The notes under the pieces: generated by a model
The model's input: only the letters and a program-made list of their open reading frames with translations
Database searches by the model: none
Told to the model about the DNA's origin: nothing
In this document: positions 22,261 through 54,119 of the stretch, piece by piece
Layout of the letters: every line of letters begins with the position of its first letter
How positions within the stretch are numbered: the first letter of the stretch is position 1
Assembly: GCA_963681505.1 (NCBI GenBank)
Contig: OY811976.1
Coordinates: 4,516,003-4,580,002, forward strand
Direction of reading: 5' to 3'
DNA length: 64,000 nt
Source: Eunapius fragilis
Lineage: Eukaryota; Porifera; Demospongiae; Spongillida; Spongillidae
Translations under genes and position numbers: made by a program

Positions 22261-22871
22261 GGGCGGGACAGCAGAGCTCGAACATTTGCCCTCACCAGGG
22301 TCAAGTTGAGTCGCCCGTACAGACTGGAGGTAGCCCGGGACTTCGAGATGTTGTAGCGTGTAGCAAGACGAGAAGCCAATCGTGCCAGGTGCTGCCTAGC
22401 TTCTGTACCCCCAACACCCATAACTCTCCACAGCTAGTGGGACACGCTTCCACCCAAGCTCAGAACATTTCTCATCATTGGCGTTATGCTTCCGCTGTTC
22501 AGCTGCCAAAGCTGCTGACCCTGCCGTCACACTCGCTTCAGTAAAGGTACTTGGATTAAGCGGCAATGTGACGGTAATGTCAAATGCAGCTGGCTTGCCT
22601 AACATCCAGTCAAGGACCAGAACATCAGCAGGTCGTGTACGACGTTTGTCATGCCCAAGACCGCTCCCTGCTTCAACACGGGCACCAATGCAGGATCGCC
22701 TGCAAGTCTCCAGAAACACATCTCGAAGCCTGTTGTGGCGGGAGACTACATCACCCCTGTACTTGCATGTTAATGCATGATGACCTAAGGGGTCCAGACA
22801 GTGTGAGGAACAGAATGGACAGTTGGCACCTTGAGAGGAATCAATACCTAACCACCACTTTATTAGGAACT
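22261..22871 (-). pseudogene. RLE-type non-LTR retroelement, C-terminal fragment (copy 1, left arm)
   Basis: On the minus strand the fragment reads CPFCSSHCLDPLGHHALTC (a C-x2-C...H-x4-C zinc motif), then VVSRHNRLRDVFLETCRR, then TRPADVLVLDWMLGKPAAFD. The CCHC motif followed by R-P-x-D and a second acidic residue is the layout of the restriction-like endonuclease domain at the C-terminus of R2-like non-LTR elements. The element is 5' truncated: its homology starts next to the GGAACTA module at 22860. One frame change separates the endonuclease part from the last block (ARQHLARLASRLATRYN). The reverse transcriptase domain itself is absent. Family membership rests on motif recognition only. Confidence 0.6.
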
Positions 22872-22960
22872 ACGATAGTTCCTATATAGGAATTGACCCG
22901 GGTCGTGAAATCATTAAAAAAACGCGACCCGCGTACTAGTATAACTCGCGTACCAAGAAA
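22855..22960 (+). repeat. GGAACT/TTGACCC module, copy 1
   Basis: This segment has a short palindrome (GGAACTACGATAGTTCC), then TATATAGGAATTGACCC, then ATCATTAAAAAAACGCGACC. The same order of motifs occurs at 26025-26100 and, reversed, at 34125-34200. It could be a promoter-like module or the end of a mobile element. Confidence 0.5.
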
Positions 22961-23524
22961 CGGATAGTTTAGCTCTTTTGTTCCTATCGAACCAGAAGGC
23001 AAAGACGAGATTGGAAGAGCAGCCTGAATTGATGATCTTCAAGTCTGCTGGACAGAACGTTTTGGTATTATTATTATTATTTTTTGTTAAATAAATAAAT
23101 TTTTTTCAAGATAAATATACAATATAATTATTTAACACGATCGTTTTTATTTTGATCTTTAAATTTACATGGTACTCGCATGGAGATACATAATTGAACA
23201 AGTAAGATATTGTTGAAATGCAAAATTTTGCTCTTTCTAGTGGTATACAAAAAAAATTTGAAAAAAAATTGTCAACTACCTATCGTTAGCAAGTTTAGTT
23301 TTGTTAATTAGTAATAGCCCACAACACATTTTATCGGCTTGGAAGCTGTAAAAGTGCTTGGGAATCCGCTTAACTTGTGGTTGATCTATTAAGCAGTAGT
23401 CATTGTGGCTACATGAAACGGAGCGTTAGCAGGCACCCTCCCCTTACTACCCCCAGAGTAAACGGCCAGTTAGTACCGGAAACACGTGCATGTACATGTT
23501 TCCTTGAGCATTCATATTATAGCA

Positions 23525-23812
23525 AACTTTTTTTTTTCTTAACAAAAAGGAAGGAAACAATACATAAAAATTTCATTATAATAATAGTAGTGATGTAGGA
23601 TTTGTAGACACAAACTGAGTAGAAACAAGGAATTACGAAAATTATACATTCATATATTACATAGCTACATTATTTAGCAGCCTGTAAAAAAAAATTGCCA
23701 AATGTAGGCATATAATATTTAATGAATGTATAATTTCCGTAATTCCTTGTTTCCATTCAGTTGGTGTCTAAAATCATACATCACCAATTTTATTTTTATT
23801 CCTTGTAAACCT
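23525..23812. mobile_element. Long-hairpin MITE, copy 1 (left arm)
   Basis: The left half (AACAAAAAGGAAGGAAACAA ... GATGTAGGATTTGTAGACAC ... GTAGAAACAAGGAATTACG) is mirrored by the right half (CGTAATTCCTTGTTTCC ... GTTGGTGTCTAAAATC ... TTTTTATTCCTTGT). The arms can fold into one long hairpin. It is the same family as 33103-33342, 33533-33815 and 59765-60018, sharing the ACAAG...CAAGGAAACAAG and CTACAT/ATATAGGA blocks. Confidence 0.6.
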
Positions 23813-23965
23813 AACTGTTCCTCCTGTAGCAAGCTGTATGATCCCTGTTTCGGGACAATGACCTTCTTCAAAAGTAAAGCAACTTTTCTTTCTTCATCAG
23901 GAGTAAGTGATAGTGTAGGACAGTTCTCACCACTTGTTGCTGCTACCCACTCAATTATGCACTAA
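23765..23965 (-). pseudogene. Unrecognised coding relic (left arm)
   Basis: The minus strand holds a protein-like frame: EWVAATSGENCPTLSLTP, then DEERKVALLLKKVIVPKQG, then LQEEQLGLQGIKIKLVMYDF. The regular Glu/Lys/Leu content and lack of stops suggest a real former exon. It runs directly into the hairpin MITE at its 3' side. I do not know the family. The mirror copy is at 51110-51300. Confidence 0.4.
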
Positions 23966-24833
23966 GTTGCTCTGATGATGACCCTTGCTTTCATCACTAA
24001 TAATACCAGCACCAACTTGATACTTCTGTTATTAGCAGATGTTCTGTTCCACTGGTTGGAAGGCCAGAACACAGTTGACATTACAACTGCTTCAAAATAG
24101 AATAACTTTTCTGGCCTGCATGGGGTAGACAATTATCATTAGAGAAGAAGACTGATGTGCTATAAGCATATTGGGTGTGACCTTTGGTTGGAGGCCACTA
24201 CCAACAGTTGACGTGTTCCGCATGTCCTATTTCACTTTTCATGAAGTTCTCACACAACTGCATGTGTGCATTATGAAGTCATGTCATACCAGCACCTTGC
24301 ATTCTTCATTGGTATGCCTTTGCCACTGAAATGGAGTTATATAGAACACCTGTGATATGCCTCCTCTGTCAAAGCACGGGTGAGAATGCTTACAGTAGGT
24401 ACAGAAACGTTGAGGCAAATGTTTTGCAATCATAGCTGCATGCATGTGGCTGTTTGCGCATTTTTAGCCGTTGCCACACACTCTGCAGAGCTTAGCTATA
24501 GGCACTTGCTGAATGTGTTAATCTATTCCTGTGTACAACATGTTCGTACATATATTACATCCATTATTCATGAATTACGACCGTGAATACTGAACTTCAT
24601 GCCCTGAACTATCTGAACGACGAGTACCATGCACCGGTCTAATAAAAGTTCATGAGTGCGGTGGGTGTTATTTGAGTAGGAAAGATAAATGTAGGCCCAT
24701 TGATTGTGTGATGAATTATCGCCAGCCTGCCCACATGCAGCAAACTTGAGTAAGCAAAATCGGTATTCCAAGGGCAAAAATATTCCGCGGCACCACGACC
24801 TCTAAACAAAAAAAACCTACCACGGTCATATTA

Positions 24834-24966
24834 GGGGGCGTCTCCAAACTATTTAGCAAAGATAACGTCATTGTGACCCCCCTCCTCCCCCATAACGCCA
24901 TCGAGCCTTGACCCCCCCAACGTCAAGATGACGTTATCTTTTCCAATATAGTTTGGAGACGCCCCC
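24834..24966. mobile_element. PIF/Harbinger-type MITE (left arm)
   Basis: The terminus GGGGGCGTCTCCAAACTAT is matched inversely at the right end, and the whole 133 bp folds back on itself (GATAACGTCAT / ATGACGTTATC). TTA flanks both ends (24831-24833 and 24967-24969), the expected 3-bp target duplication of PIF/Harbinger elements. Confidence 0.8.
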
Positions 24967-25039
24967 TTATAAAATTTTCAGCGAACACAATAAGAGCGTT
25001 CCTACTATACATGTATGTAGTGCTTTGCAGGGTATTTTG

Positions 25040-25325
25040 GGGGTGCATTTGTTGGGAGCCATGTTCACAAATTAAAGCACTAAAGGTAGAGCGTGAAGGA
25101 AGAGACTCCAGTACGCAGTACCGCCAGTTTCCCCCGCTAGAAAATTCAACCAAAAGAACATACTCTTGTCACACATGCATGCACGGGTATAAAATACATT
25201 CTAAATACAAAAGAACAATGCAACGGCTAGCGCGAGCTATAAGGGGTGCTGCACACAAATGGGAGCCGGTTCCCAGCTGACGTAATTTCGTGAGGTCCCC
25301 AGACCATCACAACTACTCCCCCTTA
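25040..25325 (-). mobile_element. Possible LTR of the gypsy relic (left arm)
   Basis: Downstream of the RNase H relic on the minus strand, a purine run (AGATAAGGGGGAG) is followed by TGTGATGG. The sequence runs about 280 bp to near GTGAACA, and TGGCTCCCAACA follows, which resembles a tRNA-type primer site. A second LTR was not found, so this is tentative. Confidence 0.35.
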
Positions 25326-25369
25326 TCTGGTGACAAGTCGAGGGTTGTCACATTGGCGTCCAACGGTCC

Positions 25370-25660
25370 TCAAAGACAAAGCATCGGCATTTCCATTTGC
25401 CTAGTCCAGTCGGTGTTTAACTGTGAATCAAATTGTTGCAAAAATAGATACCATCTTGTCAGACTAGCATTGTTGTCTTTCATTTGATTTAGCCACTGTA
25501 AGGCTTGACGGTCGGTGTGCACGGTGAAATATGACGTCCAGTTACGTACACTCAAAAGTTCTGAATGGCCAAGTTAATTGCTCGGCACTCCTTTTCGATC
25601 GGAGCATATCGCTGCTCTCTAGGTAGCAATTTTCGACTGAAATAGGCTAGTCACAGGAAA
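25370..25660 (-). pseudogene. Ty3/gypsy RNase H relic (left arm)
   Basis: The minus strand reads YFSRKLLPREQRYAPIEKEC, then RAINLAIQNF, a stop, then FTVHTDRQALQWLNQMKD and LTRWYLFLQQFD. This is the second half of a Ty3/gypsy RNase H, where the family has a SRK-L-x-x-E-x-x-Y-x-x-x-E-K-E-x-L block and HTD-x-x-A-L-x-W-L. The stop, the frame change and the absence of the other pol domains show it is dead. It abuts a tandem repeat (25640-25995) where the N-terminal half should be. Just 3' of it lie a GGGGGAG polypurine-like run and TGTGATGGTCTGGGGACC, which could be the start of an LTR. Confidence 0.75.
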
Positions 25661-25995
25661 AATAGAATCCCTAAAAAATTTGCACCCCCGTGCCATTTTT
25701 CCTATGAATTTTGGCAGCCCCACTCCAATTTTCCTACGAAACTCAGCATTCCTTTAGGAAAATAGGCATCCCTAAGCCTTAGTATAGCCATTTTTCCTAG
25801 GAATTTTGGCACCCCCGCTCCAATTTTCCTACGAAACTCAGCATTCCTTTAGGAAAATAGGCATCCCTTAGTCTAGCCATTATTCCTTGGAATTTTGGCA
25901 CCCCCACTCCAATTTTCCTAAGAAACTCAGCATCCCTATAGGAAAATAGGCATCCCTTAGCACAGCCATTTCTCCTATGGAATTTTGGAAACCCC
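25640..25995. repeat. ~100-bp tandem repeat (left arm)
   Basis: There are about three and a half head-to-tail copies of a unit containing CCATTTTTCCTAGGAATTTT, GGCACCCCCGCTCCAATTTT, CCTACGAAACTCAGCATTCC and AGGAAAATAGGCATCCCTTA. Copies differ by a few percent and small indels. The mirror is at 49080-49435. Confidence 0.9.
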
Positions 25996-26009
25996 TCACA
26001 TTCCTAAAT

Positions 26010-26110
26010 AATAATGGCAATCGGAACCTGCGGAAGTAGGTTCCATATAGGATTGATGCCATATAATGAAGTCATTTTAAAAAACGTGACTCGCGTCTGG
26101 AGGGACGACG
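26010..26110 (+). repeat. GGAACT/TTGACCC module, copy 2 (left arm)
   Basis: The motifs GGTTCCATATAGGATTGATG and GTCATTTTAAAAAACGTGAC correspond in order and spacing to the copies at 22855 and (reversed) 34125. It is followed by TTGTCGCTATCGAACGATGA. It mirrors to 48965-49065. Confidence 0.45.
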
Positions 26111-26269
26111 GTGAATCGGATCATTTCCCTCTTTGTCGCTATCGAACGATGACACGAATACGAACAGTTTTGCGTTGGTTCAGTTTCTGTGTCCCAACAG
26201 CACGCGCTTTTAGAGAACAAAAATACTCGTGCCCACGTCTCGTACCCGGTCCAACCGTTATTCAACGCC

Positions 26270-26345
26270 ATTTTTCTTCTTCTCCTCCTCCTCCCCCTCC
26301 CCTCCCCCTCCCCCTCCCCTCCTCTCCCCTCCTCCTCCTCCTGCT
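26270..26345 (+). repeat. CTCCTCC pyrimidine tract (left arm)
   Basis: This is a strand-asymmetric run of CTCCT/CCCCTCC repeats. Pro- or Gly/Glu-rich ORFs reported across it on either strand are artefacts of the repeat. Confidence 0.8.
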
Positions 26346-26749
26346 TCTTCTCTATCCTTCCGCCATGATAAACTCGAGCTAGAAACGTTGTCCACGAGCG
26401 CCAACAGCATCAATCGCTTCAGCATATATCCGGATTTTATCTTTAGGGGTCAGAAACATGCATGACGCATCGGGCGAAATTAAAAAGGGAGTAGTCCTAA
26501 TATGGTATATACGGCTGCAGCTCGGGCTGCATAAACAAAAAATCTCGTACCCTGACCATACATCTACTATGCTATTCACCGACATACGGTAAGTCACACC
26601 TACGCGTTATGAAATAGTTACCAGTTTAACAAGGCGAGATGGCTCTTTCATCGCGTGATCCGTAGCAGCAATCATGTGATATATTAGTTGACGTAATCAA
26701 TTATCCGCCATATTGGTGCTCGGGTATTCCACTCTTTTAAACGTAAAGC

Positions 26750-27040
26750 ATGTCAAAGCTGTCTTTGTATGCAGATAGCTTGCCTCCAGATGCAAAGACT
26801 CGATATATGGATAAAATCGAAAGCATTGGTGGGTTAGATCCGTTCTCATCTGACTTCGTTGGAGAAAAATCGGACGTTGTACCACCAGTTAGTGGATGCG
26901 ATTTGGTATCGTATTTATTATTGCAGACCAGTTTTATAACTAGCAAACAGTTCAAAGCCCATAAATCTCTGGAGGCTTATAACCAGTTTGTTAGTGGATG
27001 GGTGAAAGACATACTACAAACGCACATCGTCTCGGTGGAC
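26750..27040 (+). CDS. N-terminal exon of a multicopy metazoan gene (left arm)
   Basis: The frame starts at an ATG in MSKLSLYADSLPPDAKTRY, continues with KIESIGGLDPF and then VSYLLLQTSFITSKQFKAH and AYNQFVSGWVKD. The phrase QTSFIT-x-K-Q-F-K-A then A-Y-N-x-F-V-x-G-W-V is, from memory, the N-terminal signature of a large, transposon-like protein family in invertebrates, often followed by SWIM-type or YqaJ-like domains. No such downstream domain is seen here. The frame stays open to 27319, but beyond about 27040 it overlaps the opposite-strand THAP frame and is probably not coding. The right-arm copy has a 1-nt change after GEKSDV that breaks the frame. Confidence 0.5.
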
Positions 27041-27492
27041 ATACCCCCGCTACTTTCATTCAGCTCACTATCCACAGCCTTTGACTTTGCCGCAACTCCT
27101 GGTACACTGCACTTTTTATTCGCATTTTTTTCTCGCTTAGTAGCTGCGCGCCGTCTTTTCGAGTACCTAAGGAGCCGTTCAATGTCGCTGTTACTTGGGC
27201 TTTTCTTACATATACCCGGAAGATTCAGTGAAGGCAGCCAATCTGGGACTAATTCACTATACAGTGACTGCGCTGGTTTACCCTTGATGAAGGGCAGGGA
27301 ACATATCCGAGCGTTATGAAGTGACGCCGAGTCTTTACGACCGATTGCAGCCAGGAAGCCGTTCCTTCGTCCCTGTGACAATTCTAGCTCATATTCACCA
27401 TACTGGGCTCTTACTTTAGGTATCCCGTACAATCTTGTGCCCTTGCCTACCATAGAATTGGTCAAACACTGGTCGACAACGCAGACTCCCAT
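26977..27492 (-). CDS. THAP-type zinc finger protein, first exon (left arm)
   Basis: Starting at the ATG at 27492 the protein has the THAP layout. There is C4-x4-C9 near the N-terminus, then GKGTRLYGIPKV, RRNGFLAAIGRKD, RICSLPFIKGKPA and PDWLPSLNLPG, followed by a basic stretch (RRRAATKREKNANKK). THAP domains bind DNA through a C2CH zinc site. Here C4, C9 and C64 are present, but the position of the zinc histidine (two residues after C64) is Pro67 (codon CCC at 27294-27292), where CAC would give His. The same change is in the right arm. The finger is therefore probably defective, or the gene is decaying. The last part of the frame overlaps the convergent gene at 26750 and is doubtful. Confidence 0.65.
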   Translation of the reverse strand: MGVCVVDQCLTNSMVGKGTRLYGIPKVRAQYGEYELELSQGRRNGFLAAIGRKDSASLHNARICSLPFIKGKPAQSLYSELVPDWLPSLNLPGICKKSPSNSDIERLLRYSKRRRAATKREKNANKKCSVPGVAAKSKAVDSELNESSGGMSTETMCVCSMSFTHPLTNWL

Positions 27493-27599
27493 TTCAGCCG
27501 AGCACCAATATGGCGGACACGATAACGTCATTACATTTACGTGATTAATTGCTTTTTGTCATGTGACCATGAAAGAGCTCTAGAAGTCCAAAACCACGC

Positions 27600-27840
27600 A
27601 ATGGACTCAGCAGCGCTCTTGATGCAGCTACAAGGCTGATCCAGAATTATGAGTGCGTCAGCTACAAGCTAGGCTAATCAAGGTCTATGAGCACGACAGC
27701 TGTAAGATTGATCCTGAAAAGATGGTCTATGAGCGCGACAGCTACGAGGCTGACCCAGAAAAGAAGAAGGCCTATGAGTGTGACAGCTATGAGGCTGAAC
27801 CAGAAAAGTAGAAGACCTATGAGCGCAACAGCCACCTCTC
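27600..27840 (+). repeat. Degenerate YEADPEKKK peptide-repeat tract (left arm)
   Basis: About five imperfect 42-45-bp units (CTATGAGCGCGACAGCTACG, AGGCTGACCCAGAAAAGAAG) translate on the plus strand to YERDSYEADPEKKKAYECDS and YEAEPEK, with stops in some units. Peptide repeats of this type are, to my knowledge, common in sponge and other invertebrate multicopy proteins. Here it is a relic. The mirror is at 47225-47465. A cousin with RARY-x-KDPE-x-KRARY units lies at 57270-57590. Confidence 0.65.
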
Positions 27841-28238
27841 ACTGTGAGTCCAGAAAATTATTGGTAATGATTTATTTATTTAGGGGGCTTGTCCAAACTA
27901 CACACCCAGGAAAGTTCAAATTTGTATCATAACTCATAATTGTATCATAGCAAAAAACATATTTGAAACATCGATCGTAGCAAGCAGATATGTATCAAAT
28001 ATGTTTTGCTAATATGTTACAAATACACATATCTGATACAATTATGTACTGTATACGCTTGCAGAGATGAATGTTTCAAATATGTATTACATATTTGATA
28101 CAAAATTAACTTTCCTGGTGGTGTATGTTTGGAAAAATTAGCGTCATTGTGACGTTAACATATTAACCCCCCCCCCCCCCCCCCCCCCTCTAAGCGTCAT
28201 AGCGTTTTTGTTAGATTAGTACCATGAAACATTACTCA

Positions 28239-29910
28239 CAGTGGCGGATGCAGGAATAAGGCAATGGGGGGGGGGGGGGGGGGGGGGGGGGCGGTTATAT
28301 TGGAGGGGCGGCATATTTTGGAGCGCGCTCTTCTCCCCCCCCCGCCCTCCGTCCCCCTACCTTCCACACACTGGGTCTGCTCCTGAACCTTTGGATCGCT
28401 TTGATGACATCGTGTGATGAACAATCAATTGCCAATTAATTTGTCGGGACTTTTATTTTTATTAACAACATTATTAAGAAATACACGAATATACAGCAGT
28501 AAGGTAATTAAATGCACCCTACTATAGGTACTAGACAGGGACAAAACACCTGGAGAGGATGGCTGTGGCATTGGCTCTAACTAGGTTGAGGTTCAGCCTC
28601 CCATATAAGGCAGCTAGGACCTCAGCCTTAGCCCTGTTGGAGCTAGTTGCAAGGCGAGAAGCCAGAAGAGAAAAGACTCCATTGCTTCTGTCCCCCAAGC
28701 ACCATATGCCTCAACCACCATGGGGACGCAAACCCACCTAGCTCCTTGCATTTGGCATCATTTTCTTCATGCTTCCTTCCTCGGTAGCTCTGGCAGCCTG
28801 ACCTGCTCCGAATCCCGCTTCAAGTAAAATATTTGAGTTAAGCGGTGACGTCACAGACAAGTCAAAGGCTGCTGGCTTACCCAAAGACCAGTTGGGTATT
28901 AGGATGTCTGCAGGGCGAGTGTGGCTATGGTCTTTGGAGAGGTTACTTCCTGCCTCCACCTTAACACTCAGGTGGGCCCTGCGACAGGTCTCAGTAAGGG
29001 TGTCACGTAGTTTATTGTGGCGGGTTACTACATCTCCACCACGCTTGCAGGTGAGTGCATGATGGCCAAGGGGATCAAGTACTTTCCCAGGACACAGAGG
29101 ACAAATTGAGCCACATGAGGTGTCTAGGCCCAGCCACCACTTAATGGCCACCTGGAACTCTGAAGGCTGGAGATGAAGGCCTAGCCCCTCGGAGGGAATG
29201 ACTGACACCCAAGATGCAGCGTGAGGGGAGGAGACAGAGAGAAGGCGTGCTCTATTTGCGGCAGAAGATTGCTCATAGAGTGTATTAAACAGATGGTTGT
29301 CAATCTTGCAGGATAGCACCTTTTGATGGAAAGGGGATATAAACACCTCCTCTATGCTGACCGCCTCAGATAAAGGTACAAGTGAGTTAAACAACTCAAC
29401 TGCATGGATAAGGTGTCCTTGGGACAATGGACCTGCACCAGAGGAGCTCAGAGAGGCGATGTAAGCAGCTGGTGAATGCCGACTCAGGGAGCGCATGCCC
29501 AGGCCACCCCTGCCTAAGCTGAATTCTGCCTGTTGCCAGGCCTGATTGGAGGTGTCCACTGCTGTGCACTTGGAGAAGGTAGCTCGGATGTCATGATCAA
29601 AGGCCTCAAGGCTGATATGGCCTGAGAGAGTGGGGTTTTATTATCAATTATCGTTCAGGATCTGATAATTCATAATAAAGATTTAACAAATAACAATAAC
29701 TATTTTAACCGTAGTCCCGTTGACTCCCATACCTAGACACGATTCCTGACAGCTGTGAGTGGATTACATTGATCACCGCTATGTGGAAACACTGTGGCAC
29801 GCGTAGCTTTTATTTGTACGTCGTAGTGTGTTTAATAATAGGGGCGGCATTTTATATCGATGGGGGGGCGGCCGCCCCCCCCCCCCAACGCTATGGTAGA
29901 TCCGCCACTG
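28239..29910. mobile_element. hAT-like element with perfect 8-bp TSD (left arm)
   Basis: The termini are CAGTGGCGGATGCAGG on the left and, reversed, CAGTGGCGGATCTACC on the right, each followed by G or C runs. Both sides are flanked by ATTACTCA (28231-28238 and 29911-29918), an 8-bp target duplication as expected for hAT transposons. It carries no transposase. Most of its interior is a fragment of an RLE-type retroelement (28531-29630, minus). The mirror is 45146-46834 with TGAGTAAT on both sides. Confidence 0.9.
28531..29630 (-). pseudogene. RLE-type non-LTR retroelement, C-terminal fragment (copy 2, left arm)
   Basis: The minus-strand frame (28738-29559, extending upstream to about 29630 through FDHDIRATFSKCTAVDTSNQ) covers GRGGLGMRSLSRHSPAAYIA, CPLCPGKVLDPLGHHALTC, VVTRHNKLRDTLTETCRRAH and HTRPADILIPNWSLGKPAAF. 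The zinc motif C-x2-C...H-x4-C, followed by R-P-x-D and F-D, is the arrangement of R2-like restriction-like endonuclease domains. The C-terminal block (SRLATSSNRAKAEVLAALYG to SRCFVPV and stop, at 28531) is in another frame after a 1-nt shift near 28780. The reverse transcriptase core is missing upstream. The encoded 273-residue stretch is identical in both arms. Confidence 0.65.
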
Positions 29911-30295
29911 ATTACTCAATGTGCAGTGTAGTCTGAATAGACGTAACTGCTGCCACTGGAGTCAATGCTGCAGCTAACTAGATGTTCCGTATTATAAAAC
30001 AATACTTGCGGACAATAAAATTTTTCTTAACGTCACAGCCTCTCCCCCCTCCCCCCCCTAATGTCACAATGACACTAATTTTTCCAAACATAATTTGGAC
30101 AAGCCCCCTTACTTTACAGACTAAAAGTCTATTTAGGCAGTTGCTGGGGGCTCCACTGGCTATGTACATGTATATAAAAACTGTCCGATTTGCTAAGCGA
30201 ATTCAACACGAGACCCGGACCAGTCGCAAAGCTTGCTCCTAAGATGACGCATTGCCGTAGGGCCTTAGAACTACCATCAAAAAGGTAAGATCAAT

Positions 30296-32054
30296 CAGTG
30301 GCGGATCCGGGGGGGGGGGCACCGGGGGCACCGGGGGCACGTGCCCCCCCCTTTCGTTTGTCTAATTATATATTCATAGTTGCGCAATATAGCGTTTTAA
30401 ATTGCAATTTGAAGGTACAGCAACAAAAAGCGTCCGCGCTTCGCGCAGGAGCAGTGGCGGATACATGGGGGGTGGGGGGGGGGGGGTGTTTGATTGATGT
30501 ACGGATGCTTCAACAGCAAGAAAGTGAATTCTCTTTTAACAAAGCAGCTTTAGAAAGCATTGCTGATTGTTTAGTGTACTGTGGTAAGCAAGGAATTGCA
30601 CTTAGAGGCCACCGGGATGATAGTACTGCCAATGAAAGTACTAACAAAGGAAATTTCAAAGCATTGCTTTTTTTTTAGCGGAATCAGTAGTCACAGTATG
30701 TGAACTGATTATCTCACCTCACTTTTACACTAATAATGAAGATTATGAAGGCTGCACAGATAGCTGGAGTTGGGACTCTGACGCTAAAACTAGAGCGCAA
30801 GGTATTTTAGCCTCATTTAGGAATTTCGAGTTTTCTGTTTGTATTGTTGCACTGAAAAACATTTTGATGCCTTTACGTGGTATAACATCCAAGCTTCAAA
30901 AGCGAGATCTGGATATATACATGTATGAAGCATTCTGTGATGTTGAAAGTGTGGTCAAAGATGTTAAGACCATGCGTAGAGGCATTGATGAGAGATATGA
31001 AAGTTGGTACGAAGAAATTCTTAATTCATATTACGAGATGCACTGGTGGCGAAGAAAAGCAACCTCGAGTAGTTGGACAGCAGCAGAACAGATCCAATCA
31101 CCAAGCAAATAGTCCTAAGGAATACTACAAAATTGCAATTATGGTTCCATTCTGCGATGAAGTCTTAATGCAGTTAAGAAGTCGTTTCTCTGAAGATTCT
31201 AAGGTATAAGTATTAGAGATCTCTTAAGACTTGCCCCTTCTCTGTGATGACAGTGTCTTGAAATCTGTAGTCAATGATTTAAAACTTTATGAAATCGAAC
31301 TGCCAAGATATGAAAGCCTCTTTTTAAAGCTTCAAATTTGGAGGGATAGGTGGTTGAGGTGCAGCACCAAGATACCCGATACTCTTCTGGGGCTTTAACT
31401 TTGTGTTGTTTCCCAATGTTCATCATTTGCTACAGCTAGGATGTGTTCTTCCTGTTACAAGCTGTGAGGCAGAGCGTTCATTCTCTGCATTTCGAAGGGT
31501 GAAAACTGTTTTTCGTTCATGTATGGGTGAAGAGTGGTTGTCATCATTGTGTCTGATGCATATCCATTATGATGTGCAGATCGATAGTCGCGTGCTGTAG
31601 TAGAAGAGTTCATTCGGAAGCAACACGACGTCTCTTCTCTACTCTTTATCACAAAGACAAGTAACTCAAAGGGATTTTTAAAATCATTTTGTCGCAATTT
31701 TATGACTATACTGACATGTATATATGTATAATCATAATGTAACACCGTAAATGATCGTGATGCGCATGCATGCATGCGCATTAATTTTACACACTTAAGG
31801 TCCGGCACATATGTAGCATTCATGGCACCTTTGCCAGCATACTTACATGATAATCGAGTTATATCAATATTTGGATTTAAAAAAAACCTGTACATGTTCG
31901 TGTGTATGAAAAGTAGTTAATTTTGCATGCAATGCCAGCCCGTCTAATTTATGAATTCAAAAGCTTCCGCGCTTCACGCGGGAGGGGGCACATGCCCCTC
32001 TCGCACCCACCCCCTCTGGTGAACCCCCTTCGAAAATTCCTGCATCCGCCCCTG
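30296..32054 (+). mobile_element. hAT element with decayed transposase gene (left arm)
   Basis: The left terminus is CAGTGGCGGATCCGGGGG and the right terminus, reversed, is CAGGGGCGGATGCAGG. TCAAT abuts both ends (30291-30295 and 32055-32059), a 5-bp direct repeat rather than the usual 8. A second CAGTGGCGGATAC terminus lies at 30452 after a CGCGCTTCGCGCAGGAG block that normally marks the inner part of these elements. The left end may therefore be a composite of two insertions. It encloses the transposase pseudogene at 30483-31600. Confidence 0.8.
30483..31600 (+). pseudogene. hAT transposase (ZMYM/THAP-repressor-like type), decayed (left arm)
   Basis: The fragments are in order. The first is FNKAALESIADCLVYCGKQG then IALRGHRDDSTANES and NKGNFKALLFF, matching the C-x-x-x-G-x-Q-x-x-A-L-R-G-H-R-D-D region of hAT-type transposases. 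The second is WSWDSDAKTRAQGILASF then LMPLRGITSKLQKRDLDIYM. The third is PKEYYKIAIMVPFCDEVLMQ. The last is HHLLQLGCVLPVTSCEAERS then FSAFRRVKT, the C-terminal hAT dimerisation region with its SCEAERSFS signature. Stops and frame changes lie between them and much of the catalytic core is absent, so it is dead. The right arm differs by one substitution (W/R in the HWWRRK segment). Confidence 0.85.
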
Positions 32055-32156
32055 TCAATGGCATATATGAACCTCGCTTTTATCAATTCGCGCGTGGGTT
32101 CACGTTGTAGATTGGATTGGAAGCACATCACGTGAGAACATCCTTCTATAGTGGCA

Positions 32157-32478
32157 CTCCATGATACGGTAAGAACTATCCCTTGATCTCTGCCATCCTA
32201 TGCAACTATTTTTTTTTAAGAGGCATGTTCGTGTAGCTTGGTCTTAGCCGCATCCCACTGTGTAATTCGTATTTAGCGTAACGTATTATTATTGGTGATG
32301 CGTGTTTTTGTATTTGTAGCTTATACCTGTAGTGATACTGAGAACTATCCCTTGATCTCTGCCATCCTATGAAACCATGTTCGTGTAGCTTGGTCTGTGC
32401 TGCATCCCACTGCGTAATTCGTTTCAAGCCCACATGGATGTGGATTGCGTAAGGGATAGTTCTTACCGTATCACGGAG
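32157..32478. mobile_element. TIR element with CTCCATGATACGG ends (left arm)
   Basis: CTCCATGATACGGTAAGAAC at the left is matched by GTTCTTACCGTATCACGGAG at the right. Inside, a ~95-bp block (TATCCCTTGATCTCTGCCAT ... GTGTAATTCGT) is duplicated head to tail. It is about 320 bp, non-coding, superfamily unknown. Confidence 0.7.
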
Positions 32479-32689
32479 TACAGAGGTATGAAGTGCTTCA
32501 AATCCCTCTCTAAATAATCTATAGTTGTAGTAAGGGAGGTTAATTATCTGATGTACATGTGTAAGGCTTCACATGCAAGTCTGTGCATGCCTTGTTAACA
32601 CCTGGTATGCATGCTGGTGACACTGCTATTTGAGTTACATATACCTGTGGCTAAAATGTATTTTTAATGACTGCAATCATTTCCTATAG

Positions 32690-42896: not shown

Positions 42897-42998
42897 TGCC
42901 ACTATAGAAGGATGTTCTCACGTGATGTGCTTCCAATCCAATCTACAACGTGAACCCACGCGCGAATTGATAAAAGCGAGGTTCATATATGCCATTGA

Positions 42999-44760
42999 CA
43001 GGGGCGGATGCAGGAATTTTCGAAGGGGGTTCACCAGAGGGGGTGGGTGCGAGAGGGGCATGTGCCCCCTCCCGCGTGAAGCGCGGAAGCTTTTGAATTC
43101 ATAAATTAGACGGGCTGGCATTGCATGCAAAATTAACTACTTTTCATACACACGAACATGTACAGGTTTTTTTTAAATCCAAATATTGATATAACTCGAT
43201 TATCATGTAAGTATGCTGGCAAAGGTGCCATGAATGCTACATATGTGCCGGACCTTAAGTGTGTAAAATTAATGCGCATGCATGCATGCGCATCACGATC
43301 ATTTACGGTGTTACATTATGATTATACATATATACATGTCAGTATAGTCATAAAATTGCGACAAAATGATTTTAAAAATCCCTTTGAGTTACTTGTCTTT
43401 GTGATAAAGAGTAGAGAAGAGACGTCGTGTTGCTTCCGAATGAACTCTTCTACTACAGCACGCGACTATCGATCTGCACATCATAATGGATATGCATCAG
43501 ACACAATGATGACAACCACTCTTCACCCATACATGAACGAAAAACAGTTTTCACCCTTCGAAATGCAGAGAATGAACGCTCTGCCTCACAGCTTGTAACA
43601 GGAAGAACACATCCTAGCTGTAGCAAATGATGAACATTGGGAAACAACACAAAGTTAAAGCCCCAGAAGAGTATCGGGTATCTTGGTGCTGCACCTCAAC
43701 CACCTATCCCTCCAAATTTGAAGCTTTAAAAAGAGGCTTTCATATCTTGGCAGTTCGATTTCATAAAGTTTTAAATCATTGACTACAGATTTCAAGACAC
43801 TGTCATCACAGAGAAGGGGCAAGTCTTAAGAGATCTCTAATACTTATACCTTAGAATCTTCAGAGAAACGACTTCTTAACTGCATTAAGACTTCATCGCA
43901 GAATGGAACCATAATTGCAATTTTGTAGTATTCCTTAGGACTATTTGCTTGGTGATTGGATCTGTTCTGCTGCTGTCCAACTACTCGAGGTTGCTTTTCT
44001 TCGCCTCCAGTGCATCTCGTAATATGAATTAAGAATTTCTTCGTACCAACTTTCATATCTCTCATCAATGCCTCTACGCATGGTCTTAACATCTTTGACC
44101 ACACTTTCAACATCACAGAATGCTTCATACATGTATATATCCAGATCTCGCTTTTGAAGCTTGGATGTTATACCACGTAAAGGCATCAAAATGTTTTTCA
44201 GTGCAACAATACAAACAGAAAACTCGAAATTCCTAAATGAGGCTAAAATACCTTGCGCTCTAGTTTTAGCGTCAGAGTCCCAACTCCAGCTATCTGTGCA
44301 GCCTTCATAATCTTCATTATTAGTGTAAAAGTGAGGTGAGATAATCAGTTCACATACTGTGACTACTGATTCCGCTAAAAAAAAAGCAATGCTTTGAAAT
44401 TTCCTTTGTTAGTACTTTCATTGGCAGTACTATCATCCCGGTGGCCTCTAAGTGCAATTCCTTGCTTACCACAGTACACTAAACAATCAGCAATGCTTTC
44501 TAAAGCTGCTTTGTTAAAAGAGAATTCACTTTCTTGCTGTTGAAGCATCCGTACATCAATCAAACACCCCCCCCCCCCCCCCACCCCCCATGTATCCGCC
44601 ACTGCTCCTGCGCGAAGCGCGGACGCTTTTTGTTGCTGTACCTTCAAATTGCAATTTAAAACGCTATATTGCGCAACTATGAATATATAATTAGACAAAC
44701 GAAAGGGGGGGGCACGTGCCCCCGGTGCCCCCGGTGCCCCCCCCCCCGGATCCGCCACTG
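42999..44760 (-). mobile_element. hAT element with decayed transposase (right arm)
   Basis: This is the mirror of 30296-32054. ATTGA flanks both ends (42994-42998 and 44761-44765). The transposase fragments run 44572 to 43453 on the minus strand with the same stops. One residue differs (HWRRRK here). Confidence 0.8.
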
Positions 44761-45145
44761 ATTGATCTTACCTTTTTGATGGTAGTTCTAAGGCCCTACG
44801 GCAATGCGTCATCTTAGGAGCAAGCTTTGCGACTGGTCCGGGTCTCGTGTTGAATTCGCTTAGCAAATCGGACAGTTTTTATATACATGTACATAGCCAG
44901 TGGAGCCCCCAGCAACTGCCTAAATAGACTTTTAGTCTGTAAAGTAAGGGGGCTTGTCCAAATTATGTTTGGAAAAATTAGTGTCATTGTGACATTAGGG
45001 GGGGGAGGGGGGAGAGGCTGTGACGTTAAGAAAAATTTTATTGTCCGCAAGTATTGTTTTATAATACGGAACATCTAGTTAGCTGCAGCATTGACTCCAG
45101 TGGCAGCAGTTACGTCTATTCAGACTACACTGCACATTGAGTAAT

Positions 45146-46773
45146 CAGTGGCGGATCTACCATAGCGTTGGGGGGGGGGGCGGCCGCCCCCCCATCGATA
45201 TAAAATGCCGCCCCTATTATTAAACACACTACGACGTACAAATAAAAGCTACGCGTGCCACAGTGTTTCCACATAGCGGTGATCAATGTAATCCACTCAC
45301 AGCTGTCAGGAATCGTGTCTAGGTATGGGAGTCAACGGGACTACGGTTAAAATAGTTATTGTTATTTGTTAAATCTTTATTATGAATTATCAGATCCTGA
45401 ACGATAATTGATAATAAAACCCCACTCTCTCAGGCCATATCAGCCTTGAGGCCTTTGATCATGACATCCGAGCTACCTTCTCCAAGTGCACAGCAGTGGA
45501 CACCTCCAATCAGGCCTGGCAACAGGCAGAATTCAGCTTAGGCAGGGGTGGCCTGGGCATGCGCTCCCTGAGTCGGCATTCACCAGCTGCTTACATCGCC
45601 TCTCTGAGCTCCTCTGGTGCAGGTCCATTGTCCCAAGGACACCTTATCCATGCAGTTGAGTTGTTTAACTCACTTGTACCTTTATCTGAGGCGGTCAGCA
45701 TAGAGGAGGTGTTTATATCCCCTTTCCATCAAAAGGTGCTATCCTGCAAGATTGACAACCATCTGTTTAATACACTCTATGAGCAATCTTCTGCCGCAAA
45801 TAGAGCACGCCTTCTCTCTGTCTCCTCCCCTCACGCTGCATCTTGGGTGTCAGTCATTCCCTCCGAGGGGCTAGGCCTTCATCTCCAGCCTTCAGAGTTC
45901 CAGGTGGCCATTAAGTGGTGGCTGGGCCTAGACACCTCATGTGGCTCAATTTGTCCTCTGTGTCCTGGGAAAGTACTTGATCCCCTTGGCCATCATGCAC
46001 TCACCTGCAAGCGTGGTGGAGATGTAGTAACCCGCCACAATAAACTACGTGACACCCTTACTGAGACCTGTCGCAGGGCCCACCTGAGTGTTAAGGTGGA
46101 GGCAGGAAGTAACCTCTCCAAAGACCATAGCCACACTCGCCCTGCAGACATCCTAATACCCAACTGGTCTTTGGGTAAGCCAGCAGCCTTTGACTTGTCT
46201 GTGACGTCACCGCTTAACTCAAATATTTTACTTGAAGCGGGATTCGGAGCAGGTCAGGCTGCCAGAGCTACCGAGGAAGGAAGCATGAAGAAAATGATGC
46301 CAAATGCAAGGAGCTAGGTGGGTTTGCGTCCCCATGGTGGTTGAGGCATATGGTGCTTGGGGGACAGAAGCAATGGAGTCTTTTCTCTTCTGGCTTCTCG
46401 CCTTGCAACTAGCTCCAACAGGGCTAAGGCTGAGGTCCTAGCTGCCTTATATGGGAGGCTGAACCTCAACCTAGTTAGAGCCAATGCCACAGCCATCCTC
46501 TCCAGGTGTTTTGTCCCTGTCTAGTACCTATAGTAGGGTGCATTTAATTACCTTACTGCTGTATATTCGTGTATTTCTTAATAATGTTGTTAATAAAAAT
46601 AAAAGTCCCGACAAATTAATTGGCAATTGATTGTTCATCACACGATGTCATCAAAGCGATCCAAAGGTTCAGGAGCAGACCCAGTGTGTGGAAGGTAGGG
46701 GACGGAGGGCGGGGGGGGGGAGAAGAGCGCGCTCCAAAATATGCCGCCCCCTCCAATATAACCGCCCCCCCCC

Positions 46774-46807
<34 letters not shown>

Positions 46808-46834
46808 ATTGCCTTATTCCTGCATCCGCCACTG
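45146..46834. mobile_element. hAT-like element with 8-bp TSD (right arm)
   Basis: This is the mirror of 28239-29910. TGAGTAAT occurs at 45138-45145 and 46835-46842. Confidence 0.9.
45425..46524 (+). pseudogene. RLE-type retroelement C-terminal fragment, copy 2 (right arm)
   Basis: This is the mirror of the minus-strand fragment in the left arm. The zinc motif is at about 45957-46013 and the RPAD...FD motif at about 46140-46195. The frame breaks near 46270 and the true C-terminus (SRCFVPV, stop at 46522) is in another frame. No reverse transcriptase core is present. Confidence 0.65.
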
Positions 46835-47224
46835 TGAGTAATGTTTCATGGTACTAATCTAACAAAAACGCTATGACGCTTAGAGGGGGGGGGGGGTGGG
46901 GGGGGGGTTAATATGTTAACGTCACAATGACGCTAATTTTTCCAAACATACACCACCAGGAAAGTTAATTTTGTATCAAATATGTAATACATATTTGAAA
47001 CATTCATCTCTGCAAGCGTATACAGTACATAATTGTATCAGATATGTGTATATGTAACATATTAGCAAAACATATTTGATACATATCTGCTTGCTACGAT
47101 CGATGTTTCAAATATGTTTTTTGCTATGATACAATTATGAGTTATGATACAAATTTGAAACTTTCCTGGGTGTGTAGTTTGGACAAGCCCCCTAAATAAA
47201 TAAATCATTACCAATAATTTTCTG

Positions 47225-47465
47225 GACTCACAGTGAGAGGTGGCTGTTGCGCTCATAGGTCTTCTACTTTTCTGGTTCAGCCTCATAGCTGTCACACTCA
47301 TAGGCCTTCTTCTTTTCTGGGTCAGCCTCGTAGCTGTCGCGCTCATAGACCATCTTTTCAGGATCAATCTTACAGCTGTCGTGCTCATAGACCTTGATTA
47401 GCCTAGCTTGTAGCTGACGCACTCATAATTCTGGATCAGCCTTGTAGCTGCATCAAGAGCGCTGC
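47225..47465 (-). repeat. Degenerate YEADPEKKK peptide-repeat tract (right arm)
   Basis: This is the mirror of 27600-27840. Confidence 0.65.
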
Positions 47466-47582
47466 TGAGTCCATTGCGTGGTTTTGGACTTCTAGAGCTC
47501 TTTCATGGTCACATGACAAAAAGCAATTAATCACGTAAATGTAATGACGTTATCGTGTCCGCCATATTGGTGCTCGGCTGAA

Positions 47583-48014
47583 ATGGGAGTCTGCGTTGTC
47601 GACCAGTGTTTGACCAATTCTATGGTAGGCAAGGGCACAAGATTGTACGGGATACCTAAAGTAAGAGCCCAGTATGGTGAATATGAGCTAGAATTGTCAC
47701 AGGGACGAAGGAACGGCTTCCTGGCTGCAATCGGTCGTAAAGACTCGGCGTCACTTCATAACGCTCGGATATGTTCCCTGCCCTTCATCAAGGGTAAACC
47801 AGCGCAGTCACTGTATAGTGAATTAGTCCCAGATTGGCTGCCTTCACTGAATCTTCCGGGTATATGTAAGAAAAGCCCAAGTAACAGCGACATTGAACGG
47901 CTCCTTAGGTACTCGAAAAGACGGCGCGCAGCTACTAAGCGAGAAAAAAATGCGAATAAAAAGTGCAGTGTACCAGGAGTTGCGGCAAAGTCAAGGCTGT
48001 GGATAGTGAGCTGA
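47583..48014 (+). CDS. THAP-type zinc finger protein, first exon (right arm)
   Basis: This is the mirror of the left-arm THAP frame. C4, C9 and C64 are present and Pro67 again replaces the zinc histidine. A 1-nt shorter A run near 47992 ends the frame early (KSRLWIVS and stop), where the left copy continues with KSKAVDSELNES. Confidence 0.6.
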   Translation: MGVCVVDQCLTNSMVGKGTRLYGIPKVRAQYGEYELELSQGRRNGFLAAIGRKDSASLHNARICSLPFIKGKPAQSLYSELVPDWLPSLNLPGICKKSPSNSDIERLLRYSKRRRAATKREKNANKKCSVPGVAAKSRLWIVS

Positions 48015-48029
48015 ATGAAAGGTAGCGGG

Positions 48030-48325
48030 GGTATGTCCACCGAGACGATGTGCGTTTGTAGTATGTCTTTCACCCATCCACTAACAAACTGGTTATAAGC
48101 CTCCAGAGATTATGGGCTTTGAACTGTTTTGCTAGTTATAAAACTGGGTCTGCAATAATAAATACGATACCAAATCGCATCCACTAACTGGTGGTACACG
48201 TCCGATTTTTCTCCAACGAAGTCAGATGAGAACGGATCTAACCCACCAATGCTTTCGATTTTATCCATATATCGAGTCTTTGCATCTGGAGGCAAGCTAT
48301 CTGCATACAAAGACAGCTTTGACAT
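48030..48325 (-). pseudogene. N-terminal exon of the AYNQFVSGW-type gene, frameshifted (right arm)
   Basis: This is the mirror of 26750-27040. After GEKSDV the frame is lost through a 1-nt deletion (GACGTGTACC here against GACGTTGTACC on the left), and a further change follows in the SFITSK segment. Confidence 0.5.
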
Positions 48326-49079
48326 GCTTTACGTTAAAAGAGTGGAATACCCGAGCACCAATATGGCGGATAATTGATTACGTCAACTAATATATCACAT
48401 GATTGCTGCTACGGATCACGCGATGAAAGAGCCATCTCGCCTTGTTAAACTGGTAACTATTTCATAACGCGTAGGTGTGACTTACCGTATGTCCGGTGAA
48501 TAGCATAGTAGATGTATGGTCAGGGTACGAGATTTTTTGTTTATGCAGCCCGAGCTGCAGCCGTATATACCATATTAGGACTACTCCCTTTTAATTTCGC
48601 CCGATGCGTCATGCATGTTTCTGACCCCTAAAGATAAAATCCGGATATATGCTGAAGCGATTGATGCTGTTGGCGCTCCGTGGACAACGTTTCTAGCTCG
48701 AGTTTATCATGGCGGAAGGATAGAGAAGAAGCAGGAGGAGGAGGAGGGGGAGAGGAGGGGAGGGGGAGGGGGAGGGGGAGGGGGAGGAGGAGGAGAAGAA
48801 GAAAAATGGCGTTGAATAACGGTTGGACCGGGTACGAGACGTGGGCACGAGTATTTTTGTTCTCTAAAAGCGCGTGCTGTTGGACACAGGAAACTGAACC
48901 AACGCAAAACTGTTCGTATTCGTGTCATCGTTCGATAGCGACAAAGAGGGAAATGATCCGATTCACCGTCGTCCCTCCAGACGCGAGTCACGTTTTTTAA
49001 AATGACTTCATTATATGGCATCAATCCTATATGGAACCTACTTCCGCAGGTTCCGATTGCCATTATTATTTAGGAATGT

Positions 49080-49435
49080 GAGGGGTTTCCAAAATTCCAT
49101 AGGAGAAATGGCTGTGCTAAGGGATGCCTATTTTCCTATAGGGATGCTGAGTTTCTTAGGGAAAATTGGAGTGGGGGGTGCCAAAATTCCAAGGAATAAT
49201 GGCTAGACTAAGGGATGCCTATTTTCCTAAGGAATGCTGAGTTTCGTAGGAAAATTGGAGCGGGGGTGCCAAAATTCCTAGGAAAAATGGCTATACTAAG
49301 GCTTAGGGATGCCTATTTTCCTAAAGGAATGCTGAGTTTCGTAGGAAAATTGGAGTGGGGCTGCCAAAATTCATAGGAAAAATGGCACGGGGGTGCAAAT
49401 TTTTTAGGGATTCTATTTTTCCTGTGACTAGCCTA
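49080..49435. repeat. ~100-bp tandem repeat (right arm)
   Basis: This is the mirror of 25640-25995. Confidence 0.9.
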
Positions 49436-49708
49436 TTTCAGTCGAAAATTGCTACCTAGAGAGCAGCGATATGCTCCGATCGAAAAGGAGTGCCGAGCAA
49501 TTAACTTGGCCATTCAGAACTTTTGAGTGTACGTAACTGGACGTCATATTTCACCGTGCACACCGACCGTCAAGCCTTACAGTGGCTAAATCAAATGAAA
49601 GACAACAATGCTAGTCTGACAAGATGGTATCTATTTTTGCAACAATTTGATTCACAGTTAAACACCGACTGGACTAGGCAAATGGAAATGCCGATGCTTT
49701 GTCTTTGA
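49430..49708 (+). pseudogene. Ty3/gypsy RNase H relic (right arm)
   Basis: This is the mirror of 25370-25660. It keeps the HTDRQALQWLNQMKD block and the same internal stop. The purine run and TGTGATGG that could start an LTR follow at about 49755-49775. Confidence 0.75.
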
Positions 49709-50109
49709 GGACCGTTGGACGCCAATGTGACAACCCTCGACTTGTCACCAGATAAGGGGGAGTAGTTGTGATGGTCTGGGGACCTCACGAAATTACGTCA
49801 GCTGGGAACCGGCTCCCATTTGTGTGCAGCACCCCTTATAGCTCGCGCTAGCCGTTGCATTGTTCTTTTGTATTTAGAATGTATTTTATACCCGTGCATG
49901 CATGTGTGACAAGAGTATGTTCTTTTGGTTGAATTTTCTAGCGGGGGAAACTGGCGGTACTGCGTACTGGAGTCTCTTCCTTCACGCTCTACCTTTAGTG
50001 CTTAATTTGTGAACATGGCTCCCAACAAATGCACCCCCAAAATACCCTGCAAGCACTACATACATGTATAGTAGGAACGCTCTTATTGTGTTCGCTGAAA
50101 ATTTTATAA

Positions 50110-50240
50110 GGGGGCGTCTCCAAACTATATTGGAAAAGATAACGTCATCTTGACGTTGGGGGGTCAAGGCTCGATGGCGTTATGGGGGAGGAGGGGGGTC
50201 ACAATGACGTTATCTTGCTAAATAGTTTGGAGACGCCCCC
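50110..50240. mobile_element. PIF/Harbinger-type MITE (right arm)
   Basis: This is the mirror of 24834-24966, 131 bp here, with TAA flanks at 50107-50109 and 50241-50243. Confidence 0.8.
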
Positions 50241-51109
50241 TAATATGACCGTGGTAGGTTTTTTTTTGTTTAGAGGTCGTGGTGCCGCGGAATATTTTTG
50301 CCCTTGGAATACCGATTTTGCTTACTCAAGTTTGCTGCATGTGGGCAGGCTGGCGATAATTCATCACACAATCAATGGGCCTACATTTATCTTTCCTACT
50401 CAAATAACACCCACCGCACTCATGAACTTTTTATTAGACCGGTGCATGGTACTCGTCGTTCAGATAGTTCAGGGCATGAAGTTCAGTATTCACGGTCGTA
50501 ATTCATGAATAATGGATGTAATATATGTACGAACATGTTGTACACAGGAATAGATTAACACATTCAGCAAGTGCCTATAGCTAAGCTCTGCAGAGTGTGT
50601 GGCAACGGCTAAAAATGCGCAAACAGCCACATGCATGCAGCTATGATTGCAAAACATTTGCCTCAACGTTTCTGTACCTACTGTAAGCATTCTCACCCGT
50701 GCTTTGACAGAGGAGGCATATCACAGGTGTTCTATATAACTCCATTTCAGTGGCAAAGGCATACCAATGAAGAATGCAAGGTGCTGGTATGACATGACTT
50801 CATAATGCACACATGCAGTTGTGTGAGAACTTCATGAAAAGTGAAATAGGACATGCGGAACACGTCAACTGTTGGTAGTGGCCTCCAACCAAAGGTCACA
50901 CCCAATATGCTTATAGCACATCAGTCTTCTTCTCTAATGATAATTGTCTACCCCATGCAGGCCAGAAAAGTTATTCTATTTGAAGCAGTTGTAATGTCAA
51001 CTGTGTTCTGGCCTTCCCAACCAGTGGAACAGAACATCTGCTAATAACAGAAGTATCAAGTGGTGCTGGTATTATTAGTGATGAAAGCAAGGGTCATCAT
51101 CAGAGCAAC

Positions 51110-51300
51110 TTAGTGCATAATTGAGTGGGTAGCAGCAACAAGTGGTGAGAACTGTCCTACACTATCACTTACTCCTGATGAAGAAAGAAAAGTTGCTTTA
51201 CTTTTGAAGAAGGTCATTGTCCCGAAACAGGGATCATACAGCTTGCTACAGGAGGAACAGTTAGGTTTACAAGGAATAAAAATAAATTGGTGATGTATGA
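51110..51300 (+). pseudogene. Unrecognised coding relic (right arm)
   Basis: This is the mirror of 23765-23965, reading EWVAATSGENCPTLSLTP and KVALLLKKVIVPKQG. Confidence 0.4.
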
Positions 51301-51550
51301 TTTTAGACACCAACTGAATGGAAACAAGGAATTACGGAATTATACATCATTAAATATTATATGCCTACATTTGCAATTTTTTTTTACAGGCTGCTAAATA
51401 ATGTAGCTATGTAATATATGAATGTATAATTTTCGTAATTCTTGTTTCTACTCAGTTTGTGTCTACAAATCCTACATCACTACTATTATTATAATGAAAT
51501 TTTTATGTATTGGTTTCCTTCCTTTTTGTTAAGAAAAAAAAAAGTTTGCT
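51263..51550. mobile_element. Long-hairpin MITE, copy 1 (right arm)
   Basis: This is the mirror of 23525-23812, with several 1-nt length differences. Confidence 0.6.
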
Positions 51551-52203
51551 ATAATATGAATGCTCAAGGAAACATGTACATGCACGTGTTTCCGGTTACT
51601 AACTGGCCGTTTACTCTGGGGGTTAGTAAGGGGAGGGTGCCTGCTAACGCTCCGTTTCATGTAGCCACAATGACTACTGCTTAATAGATCAACCACAAGT
51701 TAAGCGGATTCCCAAGCACTTTTACAGCTTCCAAGCCGATAAAATGTGTTGTGGGCTATTACTAATTAACAAAACTAAACTTGCTAACGATAGGTAGTTG
51801 ACAATTTTTTTTCAAATTTTTTTTGTATACCACTAGAAAGAGCAAAATTTTGCATTTCAACAATATCTTACTTGTTCAATTATGTATCTCCATGCGAGTA
51901 CCATGTAAATTTAAAGATCAAAATAAAAACGATCGTGTAAATAATTATATTGTATATTTATCTTGAAAAAAAATTTATTTATTTAACAAAAAATAATAAT
52001 AATAATACCAAAACGTTCTGTCCAGCAGACTTGAAGATCATCAATTCAGGCTGCTCTTCCAATCTCGTCTTTGCCTTCTGGTTCGATAGGAACAAAAGAG
52101 CTAAACTATCCGTTTCTTGGTACGCGAGTTATACTAGTACGCGGGTCGCGTTTTTTTAATGATTTCACGACCCGGGGTCAATTCCTATATAGGAACTATC
52201 GTA

Positions 52204-52814
52204 GTTCCTAATAAAGTGGTGGTTAGGTATTGATTCCTCTCAAGGTGCCAACTGTCCATTCTGTTCCTCACACTGTCTGGACCCCTTAGGTCATCATGCA
52301 TTAACATGCAAGTACAGGGGTGATGTAGTCTCCCGCCACAACAGGCTTCGAGATGTGTTTCTGGAGACTTGCAGGCGATCCTGCATTGGTGCCCGTGTTG
52401 AAGCAGGGAGCGGTCTTGGGCCATGACAAACGTCGTACACGACCTGCTGATGTTCTGGTCCTTGACTGGATGTTAGGCAAGCCAGCTGCATTTGACATTA
52501 CCGTCACATTGCCGCTTAATCCAAGTACCTTTACTGAAGCGAGTGTGACGGCAGGGTCAGCAGCTTTGGCAGCTGAACAGCGGAAGCATAACGCCAATGA
52601 TGAGAAATGTTCTGAGCTTGGGTGGAAGCGTGTCCCACTAGCTGTGGAGAGTTATGGGTGTTGGGGGTACAGAAGCTAGGCAGCACCTGGCACGATTGGC
52701 TTCTCGTCTTGCTACACGCTACAACATCTCGAAGTCCCGGGCTACCTCCAGTCTGTACGGGCGACTCAACTTGACCCTGGTGAGGGCAAATGTTCGAGCT
52801 CTGCTGTCCCGCCC
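52204..52814 (+). pseudogene. RLE-type retroelement C-terminal fragment, copy 1 (right arm)
   Basis: This is the mirror of 22261-22871. It reads WWLGIDSSQGANCPFCSSHC, then the H-x4-C half of the zinc motif and TRPADVLVLDW. One 1-nt length difference from the left arm shifts the frame near 52420. It runs into the assembly gap. Confidence 0.6.
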
Positions 52815-54115: not shown

Positions 54116-54119
54116 GCAG

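Follow-up and report, generated by a model that had tools for sequence, protein, structure and literature searches.

An apparent inverted duplication that ends on a scaffold gap

The sequence studied here (the window) is a stretch of 64,000 nucleotides from chromosome 6 of the sponge Eunapius fragilis (C6:4516003-4580002, in an assembly of 24 contigs totalling 218,937,333 bases), in which a preliminary description had reported a palindrome with 15.1-kb arms and a 317-bp spacer. Self-BLAST of the window confirms that the palindrome is present in the letters and that its coordinates are exact: 37685-52814 matches 37367-22261 on the minus strand over 15,151 columns at 99.558% identity, with 2 mismatches, 47 gap openings and 65 gap columns. 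The left arm measures 15,107 bp and the right arm 15,130 bp, and the match between them is far beyond chance. The coordinates of the palindrome and its parts are collected in Table 1.

The right arm terminates at position 52814 and is followed there by exactly 200 N (52815-53014). The arm length of 15.1 kb is thus set by the end of the contig, and the match starts at 22261 on the left because the right arm stops at the gap. A real palindrome should have unique sequence bounding both of its arms; here, the right side is bounded by the gap. The sequence past the gap, from 53015 onward, gave no match elsewhere in the window (blastn, E 1e-20).

Table 1. The palindrome and associated features, in positions of the window.
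Feature	Position	Strand	Remarks
Left arm	22261..37367	+	Continuous with the remaining contig and taken as the true sequence; self-BLAST, alignment, repeat copies
Spacer, 317 bp	37368..37684	-	Inverted portion (about positions 189-505) of an interspersed repeat
Right arm	37685..52814	-	Reverse copy of the left arm; its final base adjoins the gap
Proximal clean part of right arm	37685..46702	-	3 of 49 run-length differences
Distal error-rich part of right arm, beside the gap	46703..52814	-	46 of 49 run-length differences
Scaffold gap, 200 N	52815..53014		Read from the sequence
Interspersed repeat broken by the join	37180..37872		Positions 1-188 at 37180-37367 (+); positions 505 to 1 at 37368-37872 (-)
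High-copy repeat stretch with THAP-like open reading frame	26642..27582	-	Served to decide which arm holds the errors

The join lies inside an interspersed repeat

One 505-bp stretch of an interspersed repeat is formed by the final 188 bp of the left arm plus the spacer in inverted orientation, and the repeat has many further genomic copies among the matches listed. Six of these copies were examined, and they are 88.9-93.8% identical and run unbroken across the join position; hence, the join cuts inside the repeat. Past position 505, about 30 bases are common to all six copies, and a far longer continuation is present in five of them. The copy in the window instead jumps from repeat position 188 to position 505 on the opposite strand. 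When eight loci were compared with the window (blastn, E 1e-8), only the palindrome was matched, and the continuation of the repeat was not found. No shared bases were seen by eye at the join. Priming by long terminal inverted repeats was also considered, but is not supported, as comparison of the repeat with itself gave short inverted matches of 10-16 columns.

An overlap assembler needs a read that holds the join, so a chimeric or rearranged molecule must have existed. The remaining question is whether this molecule formed in vitro or in the living sponge.

The arms differ as reads of one sequence differ

Between the two arms, 49 of 10,968 homopolymer runs are unequal in length, 45 of them by a single base. 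Homopolymer compression leaves 4 differences in about 10,970 positions, namely 1 substitution and three two-base insertions. Before compression, the alignment holds 15 substitutions versus 43 gap openings, and most of the 15 substitutions are one-base shifts adjoining homopolymers. By comparison, three control repeat pairs from the same assembly show 68, 57 and 17 substitutions against 9, 5 and 2 gap openings, respectively; all three are dominated by substitutions, and their differences persist on compression. Fisher tests on the raw MAFFT counts of the arms against two of the three controls gave p values of 7e-14 and 1e-6. The single substitution left after compression is too little for gene conversion to be judged from the substitution divergence of the arms.

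The differences are also unevenly placed. Those in run length are concentrated by the gap, with 46 of the 49 lying within the adjoining 6.1 kb (binomial p 3e-15), while the 2,237 bp of the right arm that adjoin the spacer are letter-perfect. Much of the arm sequence searched is repeated elsewhere in the genome, and copies of several such stretches, the high-copy one among them, were compared with both arms by local alignment, leaving out six records of the locus itself. The tested stretches cover 9 of the 49 difference events, 8 of which have comparable copies; at all 8 testable sites the copies agree with the left arm (217 comparisons versus 1, with 1 tie). The differences between the arms thus look like read errors located in the right arm. 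Forty-six differences in 6.1 kb amount to about 0.75%, the rate expected of an uncorrected high-fidelity (HiFi) read. HiCanu, the assembler used for this genome, computes overlaps on homopolymer-compressed sequence, so that most of the arm differences would be invisible to it.

As a separate observation, homopolymer runs of about 26 G or C bases lie at 28265-28291 and 35131-35156, with mirror copies in the other arm. Long runs explain all 3 length differences of the clean part only if the term extends to runs of 12 and 13.

A fold-back misassembly as the favoured explanation

The published assembly, odEunFrag1.1, comprises 218.91 Mb plus a 28.5-kb mitochondrion, with 10.49 Mb in chromosome 6. 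Its PacBio HiFi library was made by ultra-low-input (ULI) instructions and yielded 184.53 Gb in 18.74 million reads; the mean read is therefore 9.85 kb, shorter than either arm. The ULI protocol employs long-range polymerase chain reaction (PCR) (PMC11809032). Assembly with HiCanu, purge_dups and YaHS resulted in 825 contigs, and 802 gaps remain; in curation, 212 misjoins or missing joins were corrected and 8 haplotypic duplications removed. Given a mean read of 9.85 kb and two arms of 15.1 kb, few or no reads can span the spacer into unique flanks, and the absence of such reads would consequently prove nothing.

The preliminary description had offered two readings, one of an inverted duplication of very recent date or of gene conversion between the arms, the other of an artefact through which the region appears to hold twice its content. 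It is the second that we favour, whereas the first gained no positive support beyond the letters themselves. The palindrome is very probably a fold-back misassembly at a contig end, to which we assign a probability of roughly 0.87. This reading draws on the sequence, where the right arm stops with the contig, the differences are of one type, fall on one side and increase towards the gap, and a repeat is interrupted, as well as on the published library and software. It is preferred because the right arm ends on a gap, because substitutions between the arms are nearly absent, and because such palindromes are ordinarily rare. What a fold-back artefact should look like is what is found: (I) the duplicate arm ends at the gap; (II) the differences between the arms are those to be seen among reads of a single sequence; (III) at 8 of 8 testable sites the error is in the duplicate arm.

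For the events behind the artefact we infer a chimeric read, a walk-back of the assembler and a true continuation of the chromosome. One molecule in the amplified HiFi library would have linked the locus with a reverse copy of itself, passing from position 188 of the repeat (the copy at 37180-37367) to position 505 of the same copy on the opposite strand and leaving a loop of 317 bp. The assembler would then have accepted the fold-back read and walked back along reverse reads of the same locus, until the walk ended some 15 kb on, where very few uncorrected reads supported the path. Several placed reads would cover the 9 kb of the right arm nearest the spacer, and one or very few the 6 kb beside the gap. 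Scaffolding would have set the 200-N gap behind this false tail. In the true chromosome, the left arm would be followed by the rest of the repeat and then by sequence that the assembly lacks at the gap.

Several observations weigh against this explanation. Noise at a contig tip is non-specific, and a low-coverage tip on C7, described below, has homopolymer errors anyway; such a tip could likewise terminate a real palindrome whose length exceeds that of the reads. One-sided errors therefore show that the right arm is poorly supported, and not by themselves that it is false. Furthermore, a single raw read would not account for the clean 9 kb at the proximal end of the right arm, and in the duplicate pair on C7 the geometry differs, with the gap between the two arms instead of at the outer end. 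In a study that included only three PacBio samples, fold-back reads are reported to be virtually absent from PacBio HiFi data (PMC12870357). Chimeric reads in ULI libraries, counted by supplementary alignments, are put at no more than 0.81%, which is not above unamplified libraries (PMC11809032). Nevertheless, low chimera rates notwithstanding, one fold-back read among 18.74 million suffices.

The same points lend some weight to a real, very recent inverted duplication, in which fold-back repair or a template switch in the animal would have fused the locus with its reverse copy. The contig would then end where it does as the arms exceed the reads, and the homopolymer differences would mark the low-coverage tip of a true palindrome. 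Such an event would supply the at least one read holding the novel join that an overlap assembler needs, and it accords with the clean proximal 9 kb, with the reported rarity of fold-back HiFi reads (PMC12870357, PMC11809032), with the existence of biological fold-back inversions (PMC10622511, PMC7467729) and with the further inverted near-identical pairs in the assembly. However, the one outer boundary left free falls on a gap, the differences that were tested are errors of one arm, and the repeat's continuation, which copies elsewhere carry, was not found in the window. In addition, a single substitution among some 10,970 compressed positions demands an extremely recent event or gene conversion. 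On balance, we regard a real duplication as improbable.

Other near-identical pairs and the haplotype alternative

Near-identical duplicates occur elsewhere in the assembly. They were found with repeat-bearing queries, with no more than 40 candidates scored for each, a sampling that gives no rate. An inverted pair on C7 (7995001-8001045 versus 8060700-8054658) is 99.9% identical with 4 mismatches, and its arms are separated by a stretch that includes a 200-N gap (8026595-8026794). The C7 contig tip after this gap, from 8026795, is an inverted copy of its neighbour, and all six of the differences between them are in homopolymer length; we count this second tip in favour of the fold-back misassembly. 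On C20, an inverted pair (101575-104700 and 165629-168800) falls into two blocks, one of 99.1% identity (14 mismatches in 2,146 columns) and one of 97.9% (18 in 1,190); the differences are mostly substitutions, and we take the pair for an old duplication or an unpurged haplotype. A C23 pair (1359478-1361485 and 1384753-1386760) is inverted and contains two elements that have equal scores and the same coordinate sum, but it could not be confirmed to be palindromic, as its middle 2,800 bp contain no gap and lack symmetry about the centre. C8 holds a candidate inverted pair whose members lie 4.7 kb apart and have near-equal scores. Direct pairs with equal or near-equal scores lie at C6:8082836/8157419, C3:7539844/7566484 and C11:5997004/6011177, and are perhaps retained haplotypic duplications.

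Such pairs bear on another explanation, namely that two haplotypes were joined head to head, or that a haplotig was left inverted, so that the arms would be alleles. Direct and inverted pairs of the same score recur in the assembly, the C20 pair is dominated by substitutions as alleles could be, and 8 haplotypic duplications had to be removed in curation. Palindromes produced by wrong scaffolding have also been discussed for asexual animals (PMC7953838, PMC5916493). Alleles, however, should differ mainly by substitutions, and the arms here keep just 1 in about 10,970 compressed positions; moreover, both arms lie in one gapless stretch and are joined via a broken repeat. The same haplotype read twice fits these two facts better than alleles do, and we consider a haplotype misjoin very unlikely, the least credible of the readings weighed here. 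One may also picture a genuine and extremely recent fold-back event that duplicated 15 kb or more of chromosome 6 in inverted orientation; taken with C7, and perhaps C23, it would mean that large palindromes arise in this genome time and again. To us this broader proposal appears a shade more doubtful than a real duplication as such.

Gene content of the arms and flanks

The preliminary description had further held that the arms, if real, double at least one multi-exon gene and a THAP gene. The first of these claims was not confirmed; the one multi-exon gene that we identified lies outside the palindrome, at 5.8-16.8 kb. It is a leprecan-family gene (prolyl 3-hydroxylase/CRTAP type) of two exons on the minus strand, at 5810-6343 and 16198-16770, which match TPR_leprecan in Pfam with E values of 1.5e-25 and 9.2e-15. 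A Pfam scan of 10 open reading frames (ORFs) in the arms gave none above the cut-off; a sub-threshold match to Flavi_capsid in one of them (E 0.022) was taken for chance.

The THAP claim is weakly borne out. A high-copy repeat in the arm does contain an ORF (26980-27558, minus strand) that we take to be THAP-like by its motif, although Pfam reports no THAP match. The last residue of its C2CH signature is P, as it is in 8 of the 13 copies listed; the remaining 5 of 13 have H. A six-frame scan for the THAP motif (C-x2-4-C-x33-55-C-x2-H) found none in the arms, and two overlapping matches in the contig right of the gap are chance-like. No Rfam family was matched in the window at gathering scores. 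Overall, no support was seen for a doubled functional host gene, though short exons may lie within the arms.

Just right of the gap, at 53536-57031 on the minus strand, are broken retrotransposon-like ORFs. One of them carries an Integrase_H2C2 domain at 54644-54898 (E 2.8e-9); by our reading of the ORFs, the remaining ones would belong to a long terminal repeat (LTR) element. The arms themselves contain two short self-palindromic stretches, at 33532-33817 (mirror 41236-41521; 286 bp at 93%) and at 33132-33336 (mirror 41717-41921; 215 columns at 84%), which are perhaps hairpin-type transposable elements.

Relation to known palindromes and significance

The gene-converting palindromes of mammalian sex chromosomes have arm identities of over 99%, and share with the present case their long arms, very high identity and short spacer. 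They are, however, established in genomic DNA, whereas the palindrome described here has a gap at one outer end and tested differences that are errors of one arm. Cellular fold-back inversions likewise produce an inverted duplication around a short single-copy loop (PMC10622511, PMC7467729); those events were proven in cells, while the present case is read from an assembled sequence. Large palindromes have also been described in draft genomes of animals, in the 2013 assembly of Adineta vaga and in other parthenogens, together with a warning of scaffolding errors (PMC5916493, PMC7953838). The arms of those palindromes are diverged homologous copies, unlike the arms here, which are one sequence with read errors.

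Closer in kind are fold-back artefact reads, in which a locus is followed by its own reverse copy (PMC12870357). The examples given there have either no sequence or about 2 kb between the segments, so that a loop of a few hundred bases fits. Those artefacts are single reads, chiefly from Nanopore, whereas here the artefact would sit in an assembled contig. Palindromic chimeras from whole-genome amplification similarly involve amplified DNA, PacBio sequencing and artificial inverted repeats that disturb Canu assemblies (PMC6218980). They stem from multiple displacement amplification, in contrast to the long-range PCR of the ULI protocol, for which far fewer chimeras are reported (PMC11809032). 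A non-exhaustive literature search, which makes for a weak test, found no report on palindromes in Eunapius fragilis, and we claim no novelty for this one.

If the palindrome is an artefact, about 15 kb of chromosome 6 are counted twice, any gene models in the stretch are doubled, and surveys of repeats or palindromes would mistake the duplicated stretch for biology. It would also leave a signature that can be recognised without reads, namely a duplicate arm that runs up to a gap, differences confined to homopolymer length and located in the arm beside that gap, and a join inside a repeat, and this signature could be used to screen other HiFi assemblies. If it is real, Eunapius fragilis, an animal of an early-branching lineage, would carry a large palindrome of very young age.

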